Assembly: GCA_016839055.1 (NCBI GenBank) | Contig: JAEKNX010000006.1 | Coordinates: 62,001-126,000, forward strand | Source: Spirochaetales bacterium | GTDB taxonomy: Bacteria; Spirochaetota; Spirochaetia; UBA9216 | DNA: 64,000 nt | Reading direction: 5' to 3' | In this document: positions 15,456 to 62,432 of the stretch, piece by piece | Layout of the letters: each line of letters starts with the position of its first letter | Numbering within the stretch: position 1 is the first letter of the stretch | Notes under the pieces: generated by a model | The model's database searches: none | Told to the model about the DNA's origin: nothing | What the model saw: the letters and a program-made list of their open reading frames with translations, nothing else | Position numbers and translations under genes: made by a program

Positions 15456-17975
15456 TTGGGGTCAACTGGAAAAATTATACCTGTTGCTATTGAAGATGAG
15501 ATGAAAACTTCTTATCTCAATTATGCAATGTCGGTTATAGTAAGCAGGGCGCTTCCCGATGTTCGGGACGGCATGAAGCCTGTACATAGAAGAATTCTTT
15601 ACGCAATGCATGAAATGGGTCTCCGGTCCGACCGAACTTCAAAGAAATGTGGTCGTATTGTTGGAGACGTGCTGGGTAAATACCATCCGCATGGAGATCA
15701 GTCCATTTATGACGCGCTTGTAAGACTAGCGCAGGAATTTTCACTTCGGTATCCTCTTGTTAACGGTCAGGGAAACTTTGGTTCAATAGACGGTGACCCG
15801 CCGGCGGCAATGCGTTATACGGAAGCTAAACTGCAGAAGATTGCAGATGAAATGCTTGTAGATATAAAGAAGGATACTGTAGATTTCGGGCCGAACTATG
15901 ATGACTCAATGGTGGAACCTCTTGTACTGCCTGCGTCTATTCCCAACCTTCTAATAAACGGAGCCAGCGGGATTGCTGTAGGAATGGCAACGAATATGGC
16001 CCCTCATAACCTCGAAGAGGTGTCGGCCGCTATTCAGGCATATATCGAAGATCCGGATATTACGATTGAAGGACTTATGGAGCATGTTACCGGCCCGGAT
16101 TTTCCAACAAGGGGCTTAATTTTCGGCAAGAGCGGTATAAAGCAGGCATATAAGACCGGACGCGGCAGGGTTACAATGAGGGCCCGCTGCTCGCTCGAAA
16201 CGAATAAAACAGGTAGAGACATCATTATAGTTACCGAAATACCCTACCAGGTTAATAAAGTGACTCTGATAAAGAGGATTGCCGAGCTTGTCGCCGAAAA
16301 GAAGCTGCAGGGAATATCCGATCTTCGGGATGAATCCGACAGGGACGGAATAAGGATTGTAATTGAACTTAAAAGGGGAGCTATTCCCAGAGTCGTTCTA
16401 AACCGTCTTTTTATTAATACCCAGCTTCAGCAAAACTTCAATGTAAATGCGCTTGCGCTCGTAAACGGAATGCCGAAGATGCTTACGCTTAAAGACATGA
16501 TTCATTACTTTGTTGAGCATCGAAAAGAGGTTGTTACAAGAAGAACCGCATTCGATCTTAAAAAAGCAAAAGAGCGTGAACACATTCTAATCGGACTTAA
16601 GATTGCCTTAGATAATATTGATGATGTAATTAAAATAATAAAGAGCTCCAAGACTGTAGATATAGCTCGAAGCTCACTTATTGATACCTTCGACCTATCA
16701 GAGAGACAGGCTCAGGCTATTCTTGACATGAGGCTGCAGAGGCTGACAAGTCTGGAAACACAGAAAATACTCGATGAACTTGCCGAACTTCGAGCTCTCA
16801 TAGCCTATCTGGAAGATCTTCTTGCAAACGGATTAAAGATCCTCGGTGTTATCAAGGAAGAGACCATAGCTATTTCTGAAAAATATGGAAACAAGAGAGC
16901 AACCGAGATTGTACTTGAAGAAGCTGAAAAGATAGATATTGAAGATATGATTAAAGAAGAGGACATGGTTGTCCTTATTTCAGGGAAGGGTTTTATAAAA
17001 AGGCTTCCTGTAACAGCATATAAAAACCAGGGAAGAGGCGGAAAGGGTTCGTCTTCGGCTAACCTGAAGAATGAGGACTTCATTGAGCATCTGTTTATTG
17101 GCTCAACCCATGATTATGTGATGTTCATATCTAGTTCAGGAAAAGCCTACTGGATGAAAATACATGAGATTCCCGAAGGTTCAAGAATAGCAAGGGGCAC
17201 GCAGCTTAAAGCCCTGCTTTCAATAGCTCCTGATGAGGAGATTAAAGCAATTGTCTCTCTTAAAGAATTCTCAGATAAACAGTTTATTTTTATGGGAACC
17301 AGACGCGGTATTGTTAAGAAAGTAAAAACAGCTGACTTTTCAAATGCCAAAACCAGGGGAATAATTGCTGTGAAGCTGGACAATGATGATTCGCTTGTCC
17401 ATGCAACTCTTACTTCTGGTGAAGATGATGTATTTCTTGTAACCAAGAAGGGTAATGCGCTCAGATTCCATGAAGCGACGGTCAGGACTATGGGAAGGGC
17501 TACAAGAGGCGTAGCAGGAATAAAACTAAGCGGCGATGATGAACTGGCTGGATTCTTAAGTGTAAGAGAAGGCGAGATGATGCTTGTAATAAGCGAATAT
17601 GGTTACGGAAAGAGAACTGAATATTCTCAGTTTACTCCGCACGGACGCGCGACTCGAGGTCAGATAGCTTATAAAGTAACTGAAAAAACCGGCGAACTCA
17701 TCGGAGTTCTCGCTGTTAGAGAGGACGATGAGCTTGTTTGCATAACTTCACAGGGTAATACCCTTAAACTTGCTATGAATAACATATCATTGATGGGGAA
17801 AAATGCTCTAGGAGTTAGGGTTGTAAACATAAACAAGCCGGATTCGGTCATCGGAGTAGCAAGAGTTGCTAAGGAAAATGATGAAATTATTGAAATAAAT
17901 GAAAGTATTGAAATAAATGAAAGTAATGAAAGTAATGAAAGTAATGAAAGTAATGAAAGTAATGAACTCGAATAA
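15456..17975 (+). CDS. gyrA: DNA gyrase subunit A
   Basis: This 839-residue protein is the DNA-cutting subunit of gyrase. A TTG start (15456) after a G-rich site gives [19 protein letters not shown], the normal N-terminus. The catalytic tyrosine is Tyr121 in [10 protein letters not shown]. In the quinolone region [14 protein letters not shown], Gln82 and Asp86 occupy the positions of E. coli Ser83 and Asp87. The C-terminal beta-pinwheel contains the gyrase-box-like QGRGGKGSS. The extreme C-terminus is an acidic tail of repeated NES units (from about residue 815) coded by 9-bp tandem repeats. The gene ends just before a parS-containing terminator. Confidence 0.97.
17881..17967 (+). repeat. 9-bp tandem repeat encoding the GyrA acidic tail
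   Basis: Units of GAAAGTAAT (and the longer GAAATAAATGAAAGTATT) are repeated head to tail, giving the residues [23 protein letters not shown]. The unit is a multiple of three, so copy-number changes lengthen or shorten the tail without a frameshift. Confidence 0.85.
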
Positions 17976-32680: not shown

Positions 32681-32970
32681 TATTTAGCCACGGATGGATA
32701 TAGGGTAGTGCACAGTAGAGATTGAGAGGATTTTGAATTTTTATGGCTTTGTTTTTAAATAGGGCTGTATAGACGGTTTTGAGCCTTTTCTTATTCTTAA
32801 GGTAAAGAATTAGTTCTAAAGAGGGCAGGTCTGAAAGTAGGCTGAGCCTCTAAAAACAAAATTCTTTTCCTCTTGCTCGCTACAGTGCGAAACCCAATAT
32901 GCATACCTTCGGTGCCACTTTTATGGTGAGATTATATAGTTCAACGTGGTCTGCGGCCGAAATTCTTAAT
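32681..32970. repeat. Diverged single copy of the 245-bp repeat family with one 46-bp module
   Basis: The left end AGCCACGGATGGATATAGGG...GCACAGTAGAGATTGAGAGGAT starts four bases after the aspS stop. The far end, read in reverse, gives GCGGCCGCAGACCACGTTGAAC...AAAAGTGGCACCGAAGGTATG, which includes the 46-bp module found in the array. The middle is unique. A TetR gene follows. Confidence 0.8.
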
Positions 32971-38132: not shown

Positions 38133-40693
38133 TTGTAGCCATAAAGAAAAACCAGGCTAAACTTTAAAAGCAAGGCTCAACTTTTTTAAAAAATTCGTGT
38201 AATCGCTACCGTGACTGGCCCCATATAAATCCGCGGCCGGACTTCTTAAGAGTATTTTGCCACGGATGGATATTGGGTATCGCACAGTAGCGATTAGCGC
38301 GGATTTAAGAGAAGAATTTGGTTGGGAGAGCCGGGGCTATACTTTGGGCTTTGCCCGGCCTTTAAGCTGGAGTTTTTAAAGGCGGCTATAAAGAAAAACC
38401 AGGCTCAACTTTAAAGCAAGGCTCAACTCTTTAAAAAATCCGTGTAATCGCTACCGTGACCTGCCACTGGTATCCGCGGCCAAGAATTCTTAAGAGTATT
38501 GCCACGAATGGATCTTGGGCATCGCACAGTAGCGATTTGCGCGGATGAAGAAAAAATTTTTGTTTGGATAGCTGGGGCTATACTTTGGGCTTTGCTCTGC
38601 CTTTTAGCTGAAGTATTAAAGGCTGGTTATAAAGAAAAACCAGGCTCAACTTTAAAGCAAGGCTCAACTCTTAAAAAAATCCGTGTAATCGCTACCGTGC
38701 CTGGCCCCATATGTATCCGCGGCCAAGAATTCTTAAGAGTATTGCCACGGATGGATATTGGGTATCGCACAGTAGCGATTTGCGCGGATTTAAGAGAAGA
38801 ATTTGGTTGGGAGAGCCGGGGCTATACTTTGAGCTTTGCCCGGCCTTTAAGCTGGAGTTTTTAAAGGCTGGTTATAAAGAAAAACCAGGCTCAACTTTAA
38901 AGCAAGGCTCAATTCTTAAAAACATCCGTGTAATCGCTACCGTGACTGGCCACATATAAATCCGCGGCCGGACTTCTTAAGAGTATTTTGCCACGGATGG
39001 ATATTGGGTATCGCACAGTAGCGATTAGCGCGGATTAAAGAGAAGAATTTGGTTGGGAGAGCCGGGGCTATACTTTGGGCTTTGCTCTGCCTTTTAGCTG
39101 AAGTATTAAAGGCTGGTTATAAAGAAAAACCAGGCTAAACTTTAAAACAAGGCTCAATTCTTAAAAACATCCGTGTAATCGCTACCGTGCCTGGCCCCAT
39201 ATGTATCCGCGGCCAAGAATTCTTTAGAGGTTTAAGCCACGGACCACGTTAAACTCAATTGTCTTTCTACAAAAGTGGCACCGAAGGTATGAAGAGAAGA
39301 AATTTTTGTTTGGAGGGCTGAAGCGATACTTTGAGCTTTGCCCGGCCTTTTGGCTTAAATTTTTTAAACTGCAATATTCAAGAAAAACATGGCTAAACTT
39401 TAAAAACAAGGCTCAACTCTTAAAAAAATCCGTGTAATCGCTACTGTGCCTGGCCCCATATAAATCCGTGGCCAAGAATTCTTTAGAGGTTTAAGCCACG
39501 GACCACGTTAAACCATATAGTCTGACCTTAAAAGTGGCACCGAAGGTATGGATATTGGGTATCGCACAGTAGCGATTAGCGCGGACTACGTTAAACTAAA
39601 TTGTCTTTCTACAAAAGTAGCACCGAAGGTATGAAGAAAAAATTTTTGTTTGGATAGCTGGGGCTATACTTTGGGCTTTGCTCTGCCTTTTAGCTGAAGT
39701 ATTAAAGCCTGGTTATAAAGAAAAACCAGGCTCAACTTTAAGGCAAGGCTCAACTCTTTAAAAAATCCGTGTAATCGCTACTGTGCCTGGCCCCATATAA
39801 ATCCGTGGCCAAGAATTCTTAAGAGTATTGCCACAGATGGATATAGGGTATCGCACAGTAGCGATTAGCGCGGACTACGTTAAACTAAATTGTCTTTCTA
39901 CAAAAGTAGCACCGAAGGTATGAAGAGAAGAATTTTGTTTGGAGGGCTGAAGCTATACTACGAGCTTTGCCCTGCCTTTTGGCTTAAGTATTAAAGGCTG
40001 GTTATAAAGAAAAACCAGGCTAAACTTAAAAACAAGGCTCAACTCTTAAAAAAATCCGTGTAATCGCTACTGTGCCTGGCCCCATATAAATCCGTGGCCG
40101 GACTTCTTAAGAGTTTTAAGCCGCGGACCACGTTAAACCATATAGTCTGACCTTAAAAGTGGCACCGAAGGTATGGATATAGGGTATCGCACAGTAGCGA
40201 TTTGCGCGGACCACGTTAAACTATATAGTCTTTCTACGAAAGTGGCACCGAAGGTATGAAGAAAAAATTTTTGTTTGGATAGCCGGGGCTATACTTTGAG
40301 CTTTGCCCTGCCTTTTAGCTGAAGTATTAAAGGCTGGTTATAAAGAAAAACCAGGCTCAACTTTAAAGCAAGGCTCAACTCTTTAAAAAATCCGTGTAAT
40401 CGCTGCCGTGTCTGGCCCCATATAAATCCGCGGCCGGACTTCTTAAGAGTATTTTGCCACGGATGGATATTGGGTATCGCACAGTAGCGATTAGCGCGGA
40501 TTAAAGAGAAGAATTTGGTTGGGAGAGCCGGGGCTATACTTTGGGCTTTGCTCTGCCTTTTAGCTGAAGTATTAAAGGCTGGTTATAAAGAAAAACCAGG
40601 CTAAACTTTTAAAACAAGGCTCAATTCTTAAAAACATCCGTGTAATCGCTACCGTGACTGGCCCCATATAAATCCGTGGCCAAGAATTCTTAA
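38133..40693. repeat. Tandem array of the 245-bp inverted-end repeat: one partial and nine units
   Basis: A partial right half (38133-38258) is followed by abutting units at 38259, 38501, 38743, 38990, 39236, 39495, 39830, 40120 and 40456. Each begins GCCACGGA (variants occur) and ends CCGCGGCC(R)(R)A(A/C)TTCTTAAGAG. The left 50 bases (with CACAGTAGCGATTAGCGCGGAT) and the right 50 bases (ATCCGTGTAATCGCTACCGTG) are inverted copies. The middle carries a CCGGGG...GCCCGG hairpin and a CTGGTT...AACCAG hairpin. Unit lengths fall near 245, 259, 290 and 335 because of a 46-bp module. No gene is convincing inside the units. Confidence 0.92.
39503..39548. repeat. 46-bp micro-module, representative copy in the 39495 unit
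   Basis: This is a discrete insert CCACGTTAAACCATATAGTC...AAGTGGCACCGAAGGTA placed immediately after GCCACGGA and before TGGATATTGGG. Units without it join those flanks directly. A second variant (with GTCTTTCTACGAAAG) occurs in the same unit after GCGCGGA. CCAC and GTGG near the ends are inverted, so the module can form a hairpin. Confidence 0.85.
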
Positions 40694-40785
40694 AATTAAA
40701 TCAACAGGATCCATGAATCAAAGCGAATAAATTTCGGTTTAATAGAGAAGGTTATACAGAAATAAATAGAGATGGAGAGGAAAGC

Positions 40786-41151
40786 ATGATTTATGAGCAA
40801 TTATCCTATAAAATTATTGGCTGCTGCATAAATGTTCATAAAGTCCTTGGTGGAGGACTACTTGAGCAGTGCTACCATAATGCGCTTTATTATGAATTGA
40901 TTGAAACCGGGATAATGGCAAAGTATAACGAGTCTTTCAATGTTATGTACCGTGATAAAATTGTAGGAGAGTATTTCGCTGATCTGGTTGTCGAAAATAA
41001 GATCATAATAGAACTTAAATCAGTAAAAGTTCTTGTTGATATTCATGCTGCTCAGTTATTAAACTATCTTCATATTTCAGGCTGTAAATTGGGTTTTCTT
41101 ATAAACTTTCAGGGACAAAAGCTGGAATGGCAGAGGCTAGTAATTGAATAA
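40786..41151 (+). CDS. GxxExxY family protein
   Basis: This 121-residue protein has the family signature G24-LL-E27-QC-Y30 in VHKVLGGGLLEQCYHNALYYEL. It also has a PD-(D/E)XK-like nuclease core, with Asp66 in FADLVVENK and E76-L-K78 in IIIELKSV. The biochemical role of the family is not settled. A nuclease-type fold is inferred from the DxnExK pattern. The ribosome site GAGAGGAAAGC is strong. The gene is alone in a gap between two repeat blocks: the previous unit ends about 90 bases before it, and the next starts 35 bases after its stop. Confidence 0.85.
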   Translation: MIYEQLSYKIIGCCINVHKVLGGGLLEQCYHNALYYELIETGIMAKYNESFNVMYRDKIVGEYFADLVVENKIIIELKSVKVLVDIHAAQLLNYLHISGCKLGFLINFQGQKLEWQRLVIE

Positions 41152-41185
41152 AAAACAGAGTTTTGTCGGGCAATATAAGAGTATA

Positions 41186-42221
41186 GCCGCGGATCACCTC
41201 AAACCATATAGTCTGACCTTAGAGGTGGCACCGAAGGTAATAAAGAGAAGAATTGGGTTGGATAGCTGGGGCTATACTATGAGCTTGGTCTGGTCTTTAA
41301 GCTGAAGATTTAAATTGAAGCTATAGAGAAAAAACCAGGCTAAATTATAAAGCAAGGCTCAACTTGTTAAAAAAATCCGTGTAATCGCTACCGTGACTGG
41401 CCACATATAAATCCGTGGCCGGACTTCTTAAGAGTTTTAAGCCGCGGATGGATATTGGGTATCGCACAGTAGCGATTAGCGCGGATTAAAGAGAAGAATT
41501 TTGTTTGGAGGGCTGAAGCTATACTTTGAGCTTTGCCCTGCCTTTTAGCTGAAGTTTTAAAATGCAACATTCAAGAAAAAACATGGCTAAACTTTAAAAA
41601 CAAGGCTCAACTCTTAAAAACATCCGTGTAATCGCTACAGTGACTGGCCACATATGTATCCGCGGCCAAGAATTCTTAAGAGTATTGCCACGGATGGATA
41701 TTGGGTATCGCACAGTAGCGATTAGCGCGGACCACGTTAAACTATATAGTCTTTCTACGAAAGTGGCACCGAAGGTATATAAGAGCAGAATTTTTTTGGA
41801 GGGCTGAAGCTATACTACGAGCTTTGCCCTGCCTTTTGGCTGAAGTTTTAAAATGCAACATTCAAGAAAAAACATGGCTAAACTTTAAAAACAAGGCTCA
41901 ACTCTTTTAAAATCCGTGTAATCGCTACCGTGACTGGCCACATATGTATCCGCGGCCAAGAATTCTTAAGAGTATTGCCACGGATTGATATTGGGCATCG
42001 CACAGTAGAGATTTACGCGGATATTAGAAGAGAAGAATTTTGTTTGGATAGATGGGGCTATACTTTGCGCTTTGCCTGCCTTTTAGCTTAAGTTTTAAAG
42101 GCTGGTTATAAAGAAAAACCAGGCTAAATTAAAAAACAAGGCTCAACTTGTTAAAAAAATCCGTGTAATCGCTACTGTGCCTGGCCCTATATAAATCCGC
42201 GGCCAAGAATTCTTAAGAGTT
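41186..42221. repeat. Second repeat block: four units
   Basis: Units start at 41186 (left end replaced by the 46-bp module, 255 bp), 41441 (246 bp), 41687 (290 bp, second-site module only) and 41977 (245 bp). All run in the same orientation as the first block and abut each other. The last ends in AATTCTTAAGAGT about 45 bases before the stop codon of the minus-strand ATPase gene. Confidence 0.9.
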
Positions 42222-42264
42222 TTTAGCCTTTGGCGTCGGCCGTTTCAGAGAAATAGCGGCTTTC

Positions 42265-43434
42265 TCAGTCTTGTTTATCAATTAAATCATTTATGAGATG
42301 CATTGGATTGCCTACTCTAATGTTATGGTTTTTATCATAAACATAGCTTTCAGAAACAGGAGCTATAATCCAGCTTTTTATCGGTTTAAGATCTTCAGCC
42401 GCAACGTAAAAGCCTTTAGATAAGGAGGGCGCGCTTGAAGCTTTGCATTCTACCGCGATTAAATCCCGGCCTTTTGTTAAGATGAGATCAATTTCATTTC
42501 CAGAGGACGTCCTATAAAAAGATCCCTGCCACCCTTTTAAACTTGATAGAATCTGCTCAACACAGAAGGTTTCCCATGAGGCGCCGTATACAGGATGACC
42601 TAGCAGAGAATTACGATCTGTTATATCCAGCAGTGTATGAAGAATTCCGGTATCCCGGATATGTATTTTAGGAGATTTTATAAGCCTTTTCCCTACATTT
42701 ATATAATACGGTGGAAGGATTCTAATCATATACGCCTGAGAAAGGAAATCAATATAATTTTTAACCGAATGGCCGGATACTCCAAGAGCAGATGCGAGAT
42801 TTGAATAATTTACAACCTGCCCGGTTATATGTGCACACATCTGCCATAAACGGCTTATATTTCCAATCTGAAGTTTCCCCCCCAGCGCTGGAATATCTCT
42901 TTCCAGAAAAGTGCGAATAAAATCTTCTCTCCAGAATATACTGTCTTCCAGCTCATCTGCGAGGAAACTTCCGGGAAAACCTCCTTTTAACCATAGAGAT
43001 TTTAAATTATTGTCACCGGTCTCCTTCAGTAAAAAAGGCGTTAGTTCGATATAGGAGATTCTTCCGGCAAGTGTTTCTGAACTTTGTTTGATCAGCATCG
43101 GAGACGCTGAGCCCAGGATTAAGACCTGTCCGTTTTTACTGTTTCTATCAAGAATACTCCGCAGCGGAGCAAATATCTCGGGTCTTCTTTGGATTTCATC
43201 AAGACATATTATTTTATCACTATTTTCTTCAAAAAAAGTTTCCGGATCGTTCAGCTTTTTTAGGTCTCTGTTACTTTCCAGATCAAGATATATAGTATTA
43301 TCCATTTCTGATATTAAATGTTTTGCGAGAGTGGATTTTCCGCATTGTCTGGGCCCGAGAATAGCGACCGCCGGCATTTTCGATAGTCTGTTTTTTATTA
43401 ATCCAGTCTGAAACCGTTCTATATAACATTGCAT
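42265..43434 (-). CDS. AAA ATPase with DUF4143 domain
   Basis: This 389-residue protein joins an N-terminal AAA_14-type ATPase to a C-terminal DUF4143 domain. Walker A is GPRQCGKST (27-35) and Walker B is IICLDEIQRRPE (about 74-85). ILGSASPML and the LAGRISYIELTPF segment follow. Near the C-terminus EIDLILTKGRDLIAVECKAS has a PD-(D/E)XK-like pattern. The family is common in variable regions, and its biological role is not firmly known. It is the only gene in the repeat island on the minus strand. Its start codon lies within an inverted repeat. Confidence 0.87.
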   Translation of the reverse strand: MQCYIERFQTGLIKNRLSKMPAVAILGPRQCGKSTLAKHLISEMDNTIYLDLESNRDLKKLNDPETFFEENSDKIICLDEIQRRPEIFAPLRSILDRNSKNGQVLILGSASPMLIKQSSETLAGRISYIELTPFLLKETGDNNLKSLWLKGGFPGSFLADELEDSIFWREDFIRTFLERDIPALGGKLQIGNISRLWQMCAHITGQVVNYSNLASALGVSGHSVKNYIDFLSQAYMIRILPPYYINVGKRLIKSPKIHIRDTGILHTLLDITDRNSLLGHPVYGASWETFCVEQILSSLKGWQGSFYRTSSGNEIDLILTKGRDLIAVECKASSAPSLSKGFYVAAEDLKPIKSWIIAPVSESYVYDKNHNIRVGNPMHLINDLIDKQD

Positions 43435-43467
43435 ATTAGAAGTTTAACTTCATATATACAATGTTGC
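43425..43467. promoter_or_regulatory. Inverted repeat around the start codon of the DUF4143 ATPase gene
   Basis: AACATTG (43425-43431) with CAATGTT (about 43459-43465), and GAAG with CTTC inside, form an imperfect palindrome covering the start codon and leader. It could be an operator or an mRNA hairpin that limits translation. Confidence 0.4.
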
Positions 43468-43486
43468 AAGGATAATATGATCAGAG

Positions 43487-43890
43487 GGCCACTATTTCCC
43501 ATATAAATCCGCGGCCAAGAATTCTTAAGAGTTTTAAGCCACGGACCACGTTAAACCATATAGTCTGACCTTAAAAGTGGCACCGAAGGTATGAAGAGAA
43601 GAATTTGGTTGGTAGAGCTGGGGATATACTGTGAGCTTTGCCCGGCCTTTAAGCTGGAGTTTTTAAAGGCGGCTATAAAGAAAAACAAGGCTAAATTAAA
43701 AGCAAGGCTCAACTCTTTTAAAAAAATCCGTGTAATCGCTACCGTGACTGGCCACATATGTATCCGCGGCCAAGAATTCTTGTTGTCTTTCTACGAAAGT
43801 GGCACCGAAGGTATTAAAGAGAAGAATTTTGTTTGAGTAGCAGAGGCTGGTTTGAGCTTGGCCCTGCCTTTTAGCTGAAGTTTTAAAGGC
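43487..43890. repeat. Third repeat block: right-end piece, one unit and one truncated unit
   Basis: A right-end fragment (43487-43537, GGCCACTATTTCCC...GCGGCCAAGAATTCTTAAGAG) is followed by a unit from 43538 with the first-site module fused straight to the body. A truncated piece from about 43781 begins inside the second-type module (TTGTCTTTCTACGAAAGTGG) and lacks a right end. The truncated piece ends just before the MntA gene. Confidence 0.85.
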
Positions 43891-43948
43891 GATAATTGTT
43901 TTCCGATATGATATACTATAGTTATTAGGATCATTTTAAGGTATAGGT

Positions 43949-44353
43949 ATGGATAAGCGAAGCACTGCAGTACAGAAACTCAGAATATATTTTGCCGAGC
44001 AATCGGAAGTTGAGCTGGCTATTTTGTATGGTTCTTTTGCGTCAGGAAAGATTAGTGATGCAAGTGATATCGATATAGCTGTACACACTAAAGAGAATGC
44101 TTCGCTTGAGCGGTTGATCGATATACAAACAGATATCAGCGCTCTGGTTCATCGAGAAGTTGATTTGTTGGATTTACGTCAGGCTGAGGGTACAATTTTA
44201 TGCCGGGTACTGGGAAAAGGTATTAAGCTTAAAGAGAATAATATTCTTTTTGCGCACTATAACCTTCAGGCTATTTATTTTCATGAAGATTTTCTTAAGA
44301 CTGTACGCATAATGCAGAACGCAAGGATAAGGAGATTTATTAATGGATCCTGA
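43949..44353 (+). CDS. MntA-type nucleotidyltransferase antitoxin
   Basis: This 134-residue protein is a minimal nucleotidyltransferase with the exact GSX10DXD motif: G28-S29, then ten residues, then D40-I41-D42 (YGSFASGKISDASDIDIAV). In MntA/HepT systems the enzyme attaches AMP to the HepT toxin and neutralises it. The gene overlaps the hepT-like gene by 11 bases, which indicates coupled translation. AAGG precedes the start. The pair sits just after a truncated repeat unit. Confidence 0.88.
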   Translation: MDKRSTAVQKLRIYFAEQSEVELAILYGSFASGKISDASDIDIAVHTKENASLERLIDIQTDISALVHREVDLLDLRQAEGTILCRVLGKGIKLKENNILFAHYNLQAIYFHEDFLKTVRIMQNARIRRFINGS

Positions 44354-44762
44354 TATTATTAGAAATAAACTTGAATCTCTCATTCGTTGTGTTCACCGCA
44401 TTGAATCCAAACGGCCTGATAGTTTGAAGAGCCTACAAGCAGATATTGATAGACAGGATATTATAGTTTTAAATTTGGAGCGTGCTGTTCAGACTTGTGT
44501 TGATATAGGAGCACATGTATTAGCAGATTACGATGTAAGTGCTCCCGTTTCCATGGCTGAGGTTTTCAGAACATTGGCAGAGAAAGAAATTGTGGCTGAT
44601 GAGCTTGCCGAACGTCTTGCGAGAGCGGTTGGATTCAGAAACATTGCTGTACATCAGTATCAATCTATCAATTGGGAAATTGTATATGCCATTATAACTG
44701 TACATCTTGATGATTTCAGATTATTTTCAGGGGATATTGATAGACTTTTAACCAGGAATTAA
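44343..44762 (+). CDS. HepT-like (DUF86) toxin ribonuclease
   Basis: This 139-residue helical HEPN protein carries the active-site motif RX4HXY as R99-NIAV-H104-Q-Y106. The upstream DLEVA-type helix (QDIIVLNLERAVQTCVDIGAHVLAD) is standard for DUF86. HepT proteins cleave RNA and arrest growth until AMP is added by MntA near the tyrosine. The partner is the gene directly upstream. All active-site residues are present, so the toxin is probably functional. Confidence 0.88.
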   Translation: MDPDIIRNKLESLIRCVHRIESKRPDSLKSLQADIDRQDIIVLNLERAVQTCVDIGAHVLADYDVSAPVSMAEVFRTLAEKEIVADELAERLARAVGFRNIAVHQYQSINWEIVYAIITVHLDDFRLFSGDIDRLLTRN

Positions 44763-44897
44763 CTTTGTTTCAATTTTATGAAGCGTTAAACTTCAGTTGA
44801 AAAAGAAAATAGATAAAAACGGTGTCTTGTTGAATACTGAATGATAGAACCTGCTCAATGACGGCTACAGCCGTTTAAGCTTTGGAGTATATAATTG

Positions 44898-45965
44898 ATG
44901 ATGAAGTTATGTAAAAAGTTAATCATCTTTTTATCACTCTTTATCTTTTTGTCTTGTGCACTTGCTGCAAAGCCTGTTTCCGTCATCCTCATGATTGGAG
45001 ACGGCATGGGCTTTGAGCAGATAAAGGCCGCAGACTACTATTTTTATGGAGAAGAAGGAAGGCTGTCTTTTGAATCTTTTCCTGTTAAAGGCTCTGTCAC
45101 GACATATTCGGCGGACAATGATATTACCGATTCCGCGGCGGCAGCAACCGCTATGGCAACCGGGCAGAAAGTAAATAACGGGGTTATTAGTAAGGCCATT
45201 CCCGGTGACGGCTCGAACCTTGTAACTCTTTTAAAGCGTGCGCAGCAAGATGGGAAAAGTACAGGGATTGTGACTACCACTATGGTAACACATGCGACGC
45301 CCGCGGCTTTTGCCTCTCACAACCTGAGCCGTAATAATTATGCTGAAATTGCGGCTGATATTTTTACTGTTACAAAGCCGAACGTTGTAATGGGCGGCGG
45401 CGGGCCGAGTGCCGGCATTGTAACGGCAGATGTAAACTCTGCAGGTTACAATATTGCACAAAACAGCACAGAGCTGCGCGGTTTAACAGGTGAGCTCGCC
45501 TGCGGATTCTTCGGTGACGGTCACATGCCGTACGAGTATGACGGCCTGGGTGATTATCCGCATTTAAATCAGATGGCTGTTAAGGCTCTTGATTTGCTTG
45601 ATACGAGCCCGGCTGGCTTCTTTTTAATGATTGAAGGCGGAAGAATTGACCATGCTTGTCATTCCAATGATTTAGTCCGTGCAGTTTACGAGGTTAAAGA
45701 GTTTTCCGATACTGTTCAGGTTGTTTTGGACTGGATGGGCTCGCGGGATGATGTTCTGCTCATTGTTACAGCTGACCATGAAACAGGCGGACTTAGCGTA
45801 ACTTCAAATAATGGGGTCGATGTACTGCCGACGGTTACCTGGAGTACTGATTATCATACGGCTGCAGATGTTCCGCTTTATGCCTTTGGCGCCGGCAGTG
45901 AACTGTTTAGCGGCAAGATGGATAATACTGATATTTATGATTTGATCCTGCTTCAGGCGTTTTAA
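44898..45965 (+). CDS. Secreted alkaline phosphatase
   Basis: This 355-residue protein has a signal sequence (KKLIIFLSLFIFLSCALA), which could be cleaved after ALA or at FLSC as a lipoprotein. The alkaline phosphatase core follows: VILMIGDGMGFEQ (metal site), the nucleophile region DSAAAATAMATG, MVTHATPAAFASH, MIEGGRIDHACHSND and VTADHETGG. It releases phosphate from organic esters in the envelope. I start at ATG 44898, ten bases after GGAG, over the TTG at 44895. It lies between the MntA/HepT pair and a repeat block, so it looks like part of the island. Confidence 0.9.
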   Translation: MMKLCKKLIIFLSLFIFLSCALAAKPVSVILMIGDGMGFEQIKAADYYFYGEEGRLSFESFPVKGSVTTYSADNDITDSAAAATAMATGQKVNNGVISKAIPGDGSNLVTLLKRAQQDGKSTGIVTTTMVTHATPAAFASHNLSRNNYAEIAADIFTVTKPNVVMGGGGPSAGIVTADVNSAGYNIAQNSTELRGLTGELACGFFGDGHMPYEYDGLGDYPHLNQMAVKALDLLDTSPAGFFLMIEGGRIDHACHSNDLVRAVYEVKEFSDTVQVVLDWMGSRDDVLLIVTADHETGGLSVTSNNGVDVLPTVTWSTDYHTAADVPLYAFGAGSELFSGKMDNTDIYDLILLQAF

Positions 45966-46002
45966 AATCTATCAGTTGTATGGTGTTTCGGGTATTCAAA
46001 TC

Positions 46003-46372
46003 TCATATCAATCCGCGGCCCAAAATTCTTAAGAGTTTTAAGCCACGGACCACGTTAAACCATATAGTCTGACCTTAAAAGTGGCACCGAAGGTATGTAT
46101 AATGGGTATCGCACAGTAGCGATGTGCGCGGACCACGTTAAGCTCAATTGTCTTTCTACAAAAGTGGCACCGAAGGTATGAAGAAAAGAATTTTGTTTGA
46201 GGAGCTGGGGCTATACTTTGAGCTCTGCCCGGCTTTAGGCTTAAGTTTTCCAACTGCAACATTCAAGAAAAAACATGGCTAGACTTTAAAGCAAGGCGAA
46301 ACTCTATAAAAACATCCGTGTAATCGCTACTGTGCCTGGCCTCATATGAATCCGTGGCCGGAATTCTTAAAA
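46003..46372. repeat. Fourth repeat block: right-end piece and one two-module unit
   Basis: A right-end fragment (46003-46041) is followed by a full unit from 46042 to about 46372. The unit carries the 46-bp module at both positions and has length near 331. The orientation is the same as in the other blocks. It begins about 40 bases after the alkaline phosphatase stop. Confidence 0.88.
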
Positions 46373-46850
46373 TTGACATAGTAAATTGGTAATCTATGTT
46401 CAATTATCGAACGATTAATTAAAAATTTGATTAAAAAACCTGTATTAATTCATATTTTACTATTGAATTTCCTATTTATTGAGATATAATTGTTCACACA
46501 TCGAACACGATGACTACAAAATACATACCCGTAACCTTGTCTTTCAGCCTGTTTCGGCGGCGTCTGTCTATTCCGGGGCCGAGTTTTATTAAATAACCGT
46601 GGTATACAGTTTTTAAAAAACTGAAGCTACGGACGGCCCGCTACGCAATTTTCAAAATCAGGTTTATAATTATCCGATATAAAAGATGATATTCGCTAGA
46701 TTCAGCGGCTTAACAGCTATAAAAAAGAATTTGCTCAACTTAAAAAAGCGGTTTAGCTTGTTGAGACAAGACCCTTAAGCGAGCTTGAGAAGCTTGGCCA
46801 TATTCTGGTCTACTCCTTTAATGTCTGTCACGGAAACTTAAGAGATCTTG
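46373..46850. other. Intergenic stretch with a promoter-like site and no firm gene
   Basis: TTGAAT (46463-46468) and TATAAT (46485-46490) are 16 bases apart. They precede a 28-codon frame (46510-46596, MTTKYIPVTLSFSLFRRRLS...) with no ribosome site and no recognised family. Near 46630 ACGGACGGCCCGCTACGCAA recalls the element after metK. The rest looks like decayed sequence. Confidence 0.4.
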
Positions 46851-47300
46851 GCCACGGACCACGTTAAACTATATAGTCTGACCTTAGAAGTGGCACCGAA
46901 GGTATGGATATTGGGCATCGCACAGTAGCGATTTGCGCGGACCACGTTAAACTATATAGTCTGACCATAGAAGCTGCACCGAAGGTATATAAGAGAGAAG
47001 AAGAATTTATGTTTGGTAGAGCTGGAGCTATACTTTACGCTTTGCCCGGCCTTTATGCTAAAGTTTTTAAACTGCAACATTCAAGAAAAACAAGGCTAAA
47101 CTTTAAAGCAAGGCTCAACTCTTTAAAAACATCCGTGTGATCGCTACAGTGCCTAGCCACATATCAATTCGCGGCCAAGAATTCTTAAGAGTTTTAAGCC
47201 ACTAATGGATAATGGGTATAGCACAGTAGAGATTAAGAGGATGGAAGAAACTCTGGAATTTTTATGGCCTTGTTTTTTTTGCAGGGCTTTGGCACTGGCT
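46851..47300. repeat. Fifth repeat block: one two-module unit and one partial unit
   Basis: A unit with both modules spans 46851-47197 (347 bp). A more diverged unit begins at 47198 (GCCACTAATGGATAATGGG...GCACAGTAGAGATTAAGAGGATGG) and loses similarity after about 47300. Its middle (GAATTTTTATGGCCTTGTTTTT) is shared with the unit at 48187 and with the copy at 32.7 kb, marking a second subfamily. Confidence 0.85.
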
Positions 47301-47449
47301 TCACACTGTATTATTGCCATATTCTGTGGTACTCTTTTTATAAGCAAATGGAGGAGAATGTAAATTCCTTTATCGGTATTAGGGATTTGGAATTGGTTGT
47401 TTAACAATGAGCAATTTTCCGGCAATTTTTTTTACTGAGTTTATTGAAT

Positions 47450-47770
47450 ATGAGTAATGATATGGACTGTTACGATAATAAATATCTCAATATGGTCAAA
47501 GAGAAATTGCTTGAGCTGTCCTCCGGCACATCTGCTGTAATTTTTTTATTCGGTTCGAGGGCTGATGGTACTCATCGGCAGGGTTCTGATATTGACGTCG
47601 GTTTTGAGAATATCAGCAAAGAGGTTTTCCGAAAGATAAGGATAGCTTTTAATGTTTTCTGGGAAGAGAGTATTGTTCCCAATAAGGTTGATCTTGTTTA
47701 TTTTCCCGCTGCTGATTCTGACTTCATCCTTGAAGCTAAGAAGGAGATTGTTGTATGGAAGGCAGGCTGA
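47450..47770 (+). CDS. Minimal nucleotidyltransferase (HI0073/MntA type)
   Basis: This 106-residue protein has the GSX10DXD motif in FLFGSRADGTHRQGSDIDVGF, and a third acidic strand VDLVYFP completes the active site. ATG 47450 is chosen over the in-frame TTG at 47444, since neither has a clear ribosome site. It overlaps the following HI0074-like gene by 16 bases. The pair is a second, distinct nucleotidyltransferase/HEPN-type toxin-antitoxin-like unit in the island. Confidence 0.85.
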   Translation: MSNDMDCYDNKYLNMVKEKLLELSSGTSAVIFLFGSRADGTHRQGSDIDVGFENISKEVFRKIRIAFNVFWEESIVPNKVDLVYFPAADSDFILEAKKEIVVWKAG

Positions 47771-48156
47771 GGTATAAAAAAGAGCAGTTCGAAGCTGCTG
47801 TTGCAGATTTCAGTGTTTCAATTAAACTTGATCTAACAAACTTTGATCCGGATGTTGTTGATTCGGTAAAAAGCGGAAGGGTTCAGAAATTTGAGTTCTG
47901 TGTTGAACTGTTATGGAAGACGGTAAAAGTCTTTCTTCATGAAATACATGGCATTGATGAAAATAGCCCTAAAATGGTTATTAAGAGTTTTTATACGCTT
48001 GAATATGTAAGCGCTGCAGAATATGAGACCCTCATGGAGCTTCTTGATGACAGAAATAAACTGAGTCATGTTTATAAGAAAGAACAGTTTAATGAAATCT
48101 ATGAGAGATTGATTCAAACTCTGCCCCTTTTTGAGAAGGTTGTAGGAAAGCTGTAA
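47755..48156 (+). CDS. HI0074/HepT-like nucleotidyltransferase partner protein
   Basis: This 133-residue helical protein matches the HI0074 'nucleotidyltransferase substrate-binding' family (FEFCVELLWKTVKVFLHE, SPKMVIKSFY, LMELLDDRNKLSHVY). It holds an intact RX4HXY HEPN motif, R100-NKLS-H105-V-Y107, so a ribonuclease toxin role neutralised by the upstream enzyme is plausible. A repeat unit begins seven bases after its stop codon. Confidence 0.83.
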   Translation: MEGRLRYKKEQFEAAVADFSVSIKLDLTNFDPDVVDSVKSGRVQKFEFCVELLWKTVKVFLHEIHGIDENSPKMVIKSFYTLEYVSAAEYETLMELLDDRNKLSHVYKKEQFNEIYERLIQTLPLFEKVVGKL

Positions 48157-48162
48157 GTAATT

Positions 48163-48440
48163 GCCACGGAAACTTAAGAGGTCCTGGCCACGGATGTATA
48201 ATGGGTTTCGCACAGTAGAGATTAAGAGGATGGAAGAAACTCTGGAATTTTTATGGCCTTGTTTTTTTTGCAGGGCTTTAGCACTGGCTGAAAGCTTTTT
48301 TTATACTTCAAGCAGCAGATTAGCTCTTAAGAAAAGCTGCGCTTCAAGTAGGCTCCGCCTTTTCAGTTGAAGTTCTTAATCTTCTTAATCATTACAGTGC
48401 GCCGCAGCTACCATTTGCGGCCGGAATTCTTTGTCAGCGT
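48163..48440. repeat. Last repeat copy, second subfamily
   Basis: A short GCCACGGAAACTTAAGAGGTCCTG lead-in precedes a unit from 48187 (GCCACGGATGTATAATGGGTTTCGCACAGTAGAGATTAAGAGG) to the right end CAGCTACCATTTGCGGCCGGAATTCTTTG. It marks the boundary between the repeat island and the polysaccharide cluster. Confidence 0.83.
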
Positions 48441-61212: not shown

Positions 61213-62432
61213 AAAAATTAGAAGCAGCCTTTCCTCGAATCCTCGGAGTTTTTGGTTTTTTATCAATATTATTTCATAACTTTGCTGTGTTCAGATTTGC
61301 AGACAGGGCGTTTACCGTTCCGGATATTCTCATCCCAATCATACTTATTATCATAGTAATTATTGGAAGATTTAACAAAAAAAGACTTTTTATTTCAGCT
61401 GGATTGATTTTCGGAATTCCTCTATTAAGCATGATTATCTCCGTCAGTTTAGCCGAAAGCATGAATAGTTTTCTTCCTGTTCTTCTTTATGGAACCTTCT
61501 TCTCTCTGTATTTTTCAGCTACTAATATAGATACAAAAGCTCTTGTTAAAGGTTTTTTAACTGCAATGGTCTTGGCTGTTATTTTCGGTCTCCTCCAGTA
61601 TGTACTGATAAATATGAAAATAGCGACGGACAGGTGGGTTGTGTATCCTTTTGGTGAACGAACCGCCTTTGGTTTTGGTTTGTTTCGGGGAGTTAAAAGT
61701 GGCAGCTGGCGAGCTAATTCAATATTCTGGGAACCGTCAATGCTCGGGTTATTTTCAGCAGCGGCTTTTATTCTGGATTATCACATAAATAGAAAAGAAA
61801 AAATAAGGAAAATTATATATTTAGTGGGAGTTATTCTTAGTTATTCTACTACTGCATATATTGTTATAGCAGTATGTGTAATTTATATTCTGATTCCAAA
61901 GACAAAAAGTAAGTTATTAAAAGCTTATGTTTTTTTAATCATACTTTTACCCGTATTTTTGCTGTTATTGAGCTTAAGTCCGAGAGTCATTAATGCATTC
62001 GGCAGAGTTTCAGAGCTTTCAAACCAACACTCATCCGGTTATGCCAGAATCTCTGCGCCGCTGGAACTCACTCGTCATGTGCTTGCGACAAAACCTCTGG
62101 GCCTAGGCTTGGGAGCGGCCGACCATTATCTTCGTTTCCTTGCACCTCCTGATTTAAGCCGTCAATTTGCGGGGGACAGAGCAGTTCATAACAGTTTCTT
62201 CCTGCTTATTATATGGTTCGGGTTTGGCTCTGTTTTTTACTTTATATTTTATTTAAGGCTCTTTCTTTCAACAGGGATTACACATTCGGTTTATCTTTTC
62301 CTTTTAGTACTTTTCTTCCTATTAGGAACAGGAGCAATTACAATGTTTGTCAGCTGGCTGCTGCTGGCACTTGCTCTTCCCTTGGCATTTCAATACACGG
62401 ATGAGGTTCATGAAAATACTCTGGATAACTAA
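61209..62432 (+). CDS. O-antigen polymerase/ligase-like membrane protein (Wzy/WaaL type)
   Basis: This 407-residue protein has about ten to twelve hydrophobic segments and a large outer loop (about 255-320). The loop holds RANSIFWEPSMLGL earlier and then KPLGLGLGAADHYLRF with GDRAVHNSFFLLIIWFG, the pattern of the O-antigen ligase/polymerase superfamily. It would join repeat units or attach the polymer. It starts at a TTG (61209) overlapping the previous gene. Polymerase and ligase cannot be told apart here. Confidence 0.82.
   Translation: MKKLEAAFPRILGVFGFLSILFHNFAVFRFADRAFTVPDILIPIILIIIVIIGRFNKKRLFISAGLIFGIPLLSMIISVSLAESMNSFLPVLLYGTFFSLYFSATNIDTKALVKGFLTAMVLAVIFGLLQYVLINMKIATDRWVVYPFGERTAFGFGLFRGVKSGSWRANSIFWEPSMLGLFSAAAFILDYHINRKEKIRKIIYLVGVILSYSTTAYIVIAVCVIYILIPKTKSKLLKAYVFLIILLPVFLLLLSLSPRVINAFGRVSELSNQHSSGYARISAPLELTRHVLATKPLGLGLGAADHYLRFLAPPDLSRQFAGDRAVHNSFFLLIIWFGFGSVFYFIFYLRLFLSTGITHSVYLFLLVLFFLLGTGAITMFVSWLLLALALPLAFQYTDEVHENTLDN

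Follow-up and report, generated by a model that had tools for sequence, protein, structure and literature searches.

A 46-bp hairpin module, probably one of a family of very small inserts, and the length ladder of a palindromic repeat array in a Spirochaetales genome

The main tandem repeat array of the Spirochaetales assembly GCA_016839055.1 contains units of three lengths (243-247, 289-290 and 336-337 bp), and this ladder raises the question of whether the longer units have received a segment or the shorter ones have lost it. The window, that is, the whole stretch analysed (64,000 nucleotides of contig JAEKNX010000006.1, forward-strand positions 62,001 to 126,000), belongs to a 5.0-Mb assembly of 43 contigs that is ~97% complete. 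The array, delimited by TRF and by a unit table, occupies 38235..42201 on the plus strand and is built of palindromic units of ~245 bp. A unit is made of two arms, the left one GCCACGGATGGATATTGGGTATCGCACAGTAGCGATTAGCGCGGAT and the right one approximately the reverse complement of the left, and the junction between neighbouring units is the palindromic centre AAGAATTCTT. Accessory genes lie between the repeat units at 40690-48180. The gene of a GxxExxY/PDDEXK_3 protein (40786-41151) splits the main array; the others encode an AAA_14-DUF4143 ATPase (42265-43434, minus strand) and two nucleotidyltransferase/HepT-like or substrate-binding pairs (43949-44762 and 47444-48156). Two of the breaks, at 40690 and 42220, coincide with the same palindromic centre, and units continue past the main array up to 47.2 kb of the window. 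A second array was found over the 3' end of contig C25 and the 5' end of contig C30 (L031 end, L032 start); both contigs stop within the same array type, and these are probably the two parts of a single array split by the assembly. The same arm, lacking the segment discussed here, also forms five tandem ~127-bp units on contig C17 (about 162400-162970; L034:880-1470). A separate repeat in the window (17870-17966) consists of about 11 copies of the 9-bp unit TAATGAAAG at the 3' end of a long ORF.

The initial annotation had attributed the ladder to a 46-bp module present at one or both of two sites of the unit. The GGCC..TTCTT centre was taken as the new boundary of all units and 46 bp were excised at these two sites, after which all the complete unfused units, including those of the C25 and C30 array, measured 239-247 bp; the lengths assigned to each unit were correct. 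In the window, seven units of 243-247 bp had no module (38235, 38478, 38721, 38966, 40432, 41417 and 41954), two had it at site 2 only (39807, 289 bp; 41664, 290 bp), four at both sites (39470, 337 bp; 40096, 336 bp; 46017, 339 bp; and 46846) and three were site-1/site-2 fusions (39211, 41171 and 43513). A pattern search of the genome allowing three mismatches gave 16 matches, against none for the reversed control pattern. The window holds 14 full copies, 13 of them in 39244-46987, and one shortened copy.

Those 13 are on the plus strand and were identified by both the pattern search and the unit table, except where indicated. Site 1 is filled at 39503..39548, 40128..40173, 46050..46095 and 46859..46904, and site 2 at 39586..39631 (with a compensated CTAC/GTAG stem), 39875..39920, 40211..40256 (unit table and junction alignment), 41732..41777, 46133..46178 and 46942..46987 (with the 3' side of the stem broken to GCTG). 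The copies of the fusion units lie at 39244..39289, 41194..41239 (unit table), whose stem has been lengthened to CACCTC/GAGGTG by paired changes, and 43546..43591. The truncated copy (43782..43813, plus strand) abuts the palindrome centre AATTCTT. The fourteenth full copy, at 32904..32949 on the minus strand, belongs to an inverted-repeat element (32687-32960) that is diverged and single-copy; the copy occupies its right arm, and the left arm, near 32687, does not contain one.

Site-1 and site-2 copies are spaced 83 bp apart and carry distinct variants, GTCTGACC at site 1 and mostly GTCTTTCTAC at site 2. The division by site that had been annotated does not extend to the site-2 copy at 46942, which is of the GTCTGACC type. 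The three fusion units, previously placed at 39236, 41186 and 43538 and read as deletion products, do each have the left flank of site 1 and the right flank of site 2 around one module. Since the copy at 39244 is of the site-2 variant and that at 43546 of the site-1 variant, recombination between the two sites has occurred at least twice, with different breakpoints. A tree of the module-excised units required four changes at site 1 and six at site 2; few of its forks were supported and gene conversion makes such counts unreliable, so no number of gains is claimed.

Exact junctions were obtained at site 2. The best pair compares the filled site at 40211 with the empty one at 38546 (38539..38552, plus strand, GCGCGGA|TGAAG.., by junction alignment), with identical flanks over 25 bases on the left and 27 on the right; the filled site at 39586 has 76 bases in common with the same empty site on the right. 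The module stands between the A and the T of CGGA|T, and any direct repeat is of at most 1 bp (A). All the plus/minus pairs are between paralogous repeat copies in draft genomes, as no empty orthologous locus outside repeats was found, and gene conversion obscures the sequence of events among them. Two empty sites have flanks otherwise seen with the module, TGAAG at 38546 (unit 38478) and TTTTAAGCCGCGGA in unit 41417, and these two units may be secondary losses. They are also what would favour the reading of the module as an ancestral segment of the repeat, precisely deleted from the shorter units. Nevertheless, an arm free of the module is the palindromic counterpart of the opposite arm, and the module is missing from this opposite arm and from most of the diverged arms in the genome.

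The search for the module beyond this repeat bears on the same alternative. Copies were found in several genomes and in several families of palindromic repeats; the junctions between filled and empty sites are exact, and any target duplication is of at most 1 bp. Search R1 detected the module in three of the four other genomes of the genus (G001, which is the Spirochaetales MAG SZUA-414, G002 and G004), and neither in G003 nor in 36 genomes outside the genus. With a covariance model (search R3), the 35-nt hairpin that opens the module gave 31 matches in this genome, five in G001, three in G002 and two in G004, and none in G003 or in two other family members searched. The model of the host-repeat arm (search R2) matched 62 arms in this genome and, partially, one in G001, and detected no arm in G002 or G004, both of which bear the module. 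As the module exists without detectable host arms, ancestral loss is rejected as the main account, and we regard it as very improbable. An exact degenerate pattern run against 84,980 genomes recovered only SZUA-414 and two stemless matches; viral contigs gave one stemless match, and phages and plasmids none. The three stemless matches were taken as chance.

In SZUA-414 a 58-bp copy lies inside a different palindromic repeat, at GGCC^ACGGACATA. The filled sequence (GGCC, the 58-bp insert and ACGGACATAAGCTG) and the empty one, GGCCACGGACATAAGCTG, located on the same contig at a distance of ~2 kb, are identical at 65 of 70 positions on the right. In the genome of the window, contigs C39 and C5 (L148, L150, L144, L142) bear tandem arrays of relatives of this host repeat, a palindromic repeat with a period of ~90 bp, GGCCACGGATTGGCTGCCCAGATATGTGGTCACACGGATTG..., and the units shown have no insert at that point. 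The initial annotation proposed that insertion is always after CGGA; this does not hold elsewhere, since left flanks outside the array are CAGA, CGAA, TTGA or CTGA and the SZUA-414 insert is between GGCC and ACGGA. Possible reduced forms of about 22-25 bp, CTAC-GAA-GTAG-CACCGAAGGTA and CTGC-AAA-GCAG-CACCGAAGGTA, sit in the small palindromes CTGCCA/TGGCAG and TTCACCA/TGGTGAA. On contig C434 of G004 (L046/L104) a short-form and a long-form module are adjacent, the long form just downstream. The arm-less genomes, the SZUA-414 pair, the short forms in small palindromes and the one-armed element at 32687-32960 favour gain over loss, and the insertion that had been postulated is borne out both by copies outside the host repeat and by the clean pair of filled and empty sites in a second family of repeats.

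A further possibility is that one old insertion, or a native domain, was spread passively by homologous recombination or gene conversion to both array sites and to the other families. The array clearly recombines, as the fusion units and the weakly supported tree indicate, CGGA closes each of the two array sites and the arm tip GGCCACGGA recurs in several host repeats. However, the array sites have no more than about 4 bp of flanking homology, the SZUA-414 insert is on the opposite side of CGGA, the candidate short forms are in unrelated palindromes and G002 and G004 have copies without arms. We therefore consider passive spread unlikely as the whole explanation.

The module itself consists of a 35-nt hairpin (a 4-bp stem and a loop of ~27 nt) followed by C, the mini-hairpin ACC-GAA-GGT and A. 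The CCAC/GTGG sequences that had been annotated as its inverted ends do close a hairpin, but one that spans only the first 35 of the 46 nt; CACCGAAGGTA comes next and holds the second, predicted hairpin, which in longer copies becomes ACCGAA-GGC-GAA-GCC-GCAGGT. Seven stems were seen: CCAC/GTGG, CTAC/GTAG, CTGC/GCAG, GCAC/GTGC, TTGC/GCAA, CAAC/GTTG and CGAC/GTCG. Among 24 distinct hairpins from four genomes, 96.9% of the stem cells were paired (77.9% in shuffles), three of the four stem pairs had changed on both sides, and 21 cells were double-changed against 5.4 in shuffles. The covariation score was 0.605, compared with 0.216 for shuffled alignments, none of 500 shuffles scored as high and slid controls were far lower. 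Compensatory changes thus maintain the stem, while the loop is conserved in sequence (GTTANRCY..TATRGTCTNAC). Module-free arms fold as one continuous hairpin across the centre and through the insertion point (z -2.4). The long-form module alone folds no better than shuffled DNA (z -0.5), and for this reason the structural argument rests on covariation. An inner pairing of the loop, GTTAAAC/GTCTGAC, is not claimed, since 79% of its cells pair and a single one of its seven pairs shows two-sided changes. A hammerhead-like reading of CTGA..GAAA was abandoned by eye because the GAAA is variable.

Conserved loop and compensated stem would also suit a structured RNA or a protein-binding regulatory motif that is selected for its function and copied with intergenic palindromes. 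The motif is repeated beside 5S rRNA fragments: the ends of contigs C43, C33, C14 and C34 (L077:1-2500, L071:100-900, L072, L076) have repeats with fragments resembling the 5S rRNA 3' end, GAGTAGGTCATCGCCAGGC, each of which carries the 35-nt hairpin with a GCAC/GTGC stem and then a different second hairpin. On the other hand, neither the array region nor nine further loci gave any match in Rfam, and presence or absence in otherwise similar units makes an essential role there unlikely. This functional reading is consequently held to be doubtful.

Known systems were then compared. In contrast to MITEs, which have terminal inverted repeats at the element ends and a target-site duplication of at least 2 bp, the CCAC/GTGG stem closes 35 of the 46 nt, the second hairpin ends the module, and the duplication is at most 1 bp (A) at both the array sites and SZUA-414. 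An integron attC has RYYYAAC at 5' and GTTRRRY at 3' of one palindrome; the module has GTTAAAC at 5' and GTCTGAC at 3', the reversed order, and was discarded as such a site. Hairpins, a duplication of 1 bp or less and insertion in the array beside a short fixed sequence would agree with an IS200/IS605-type or REP/RAYT-type element moved by a Y1 transposase. However, the Y1_Tnp family (PF01797) has no match in this genome, the same search being positive in five of 14 control genomes, and no other mobiliser was identified. Neither is there a constant GTAG/GGAG-type tetranucleotide as in REP/REPIN-RAYT or IS200/IS605 elements, the flanks being CGGA, CAGA, CGAA, TTGA, CTGA and GGCC. The missing transposase led to the rejection of this identity, to which we give almost no credence.

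The closest anatomical counterparts are the boxB of the BOX element of Streptococcus, mitochondrial double-hairpin elements and yeast GC clusters. Like boxB in the boxA-boxB-boxC arrangement, the module is a hairpin of ~45 bp that occurs in zero to n copies within a larger palindromic repeat, pairs little with its surroundings and gives rise to a length ladder; boxB is in tandem at one place and described only within BOX (PMC3049150), whereas the spirochaete module occupies two distinct positions and also occurs in further repeat families and in other genomes, so that it is not restricted to one family. Mitochondrial double-hairpin elements, repetitive hairpin-forming elements (RHE) and yeast GC clusters, which have no known mobiliser, are likewise sporadic, of ~40-60 bp, made of one or two adjacent hairpins and prone to merge with other hairpins (PMC2800124, PMC4478555); the module shares the two adjacent hairpins, with the second one predicted. 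The sponge and yeast elements conserve their stems and vary in their loops, the reverse of the conserved loop and compensated stem found here, and AG or ACT direct repeats border the GC clusters, as opposed to 1 bp at most for the module (PMC2800124, PMC4478555). Conserved loop with compensated stem has been set against the sponge elements and ascribed to structured RNAs such as introns (PMC2800124). Correia/NEMIS elements, which are small inverted-repeat elements, likewise may have or lack an internal segment of ~50 bp, but this segment lies at one fixed place of one family, holds an IHF site and is not reviewed as an independent insert (PMC2229807).

Its occurrence in other families and genomes, the second filled/empty pair and the covarying stem lead us to regard the module as an independent insert and not an ancestral segment. 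We consider it likely that it represents a family of non-autonomous inserts, very small (46-58 bp) and confined to the genus, shaped by folded-strand insertion and by recombination within the array. The insertion is well supported; the folded strand is put forward as a proposal. A folded single strand, either DNA or RNA copied back, would insert into the arms or tips of palindromes, and a host factor would read the conserved loop during this process. That the module always enters hairpin loops was not upheld, as the array sites lie in the stem. Within the array, unequal recombination between units would multiply, homogenise and lose the module, and recombination between site-1 and site-2 copies 83 bp apart would produce the fused units; these processes together would yield the ladder. 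The spread along the array is probably due to recombination rather than to repeated jumping, and the sharing between species could reflect the descent of composite repeats. Nested small palindromic inserts are a kind already known. Cyanobacterial small dispersed repeats (Elhai et al. 2008) are reportedly very small, mobile and able to enter other repeats with precise empty sites, and they are likely a close parallel.

Clean filled/empty junctions are thus available for an insert of 46-58 bp in two repeat families and two genomes, and such an insert would be one of the smallest pieces of mobile DNA put forward for bacteria. The conserved loop and the covarying stem point to recognition of a folded strand, a pattern that makes the movement of tiny palindromic elements directly testable. 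It is conceivable, if rather improbable, that the module belongs to a new class of bacterial micro-element, mobile in its folded state, in which a protein or RNA factor recognises the conserved loop on an interchangeable stem and the insertion into palindrome arms is exact and without target duplication. If this were true, evolution of the micro-element would bear on its fold, as happens in structured RNAs, and not on transposon-like ends.
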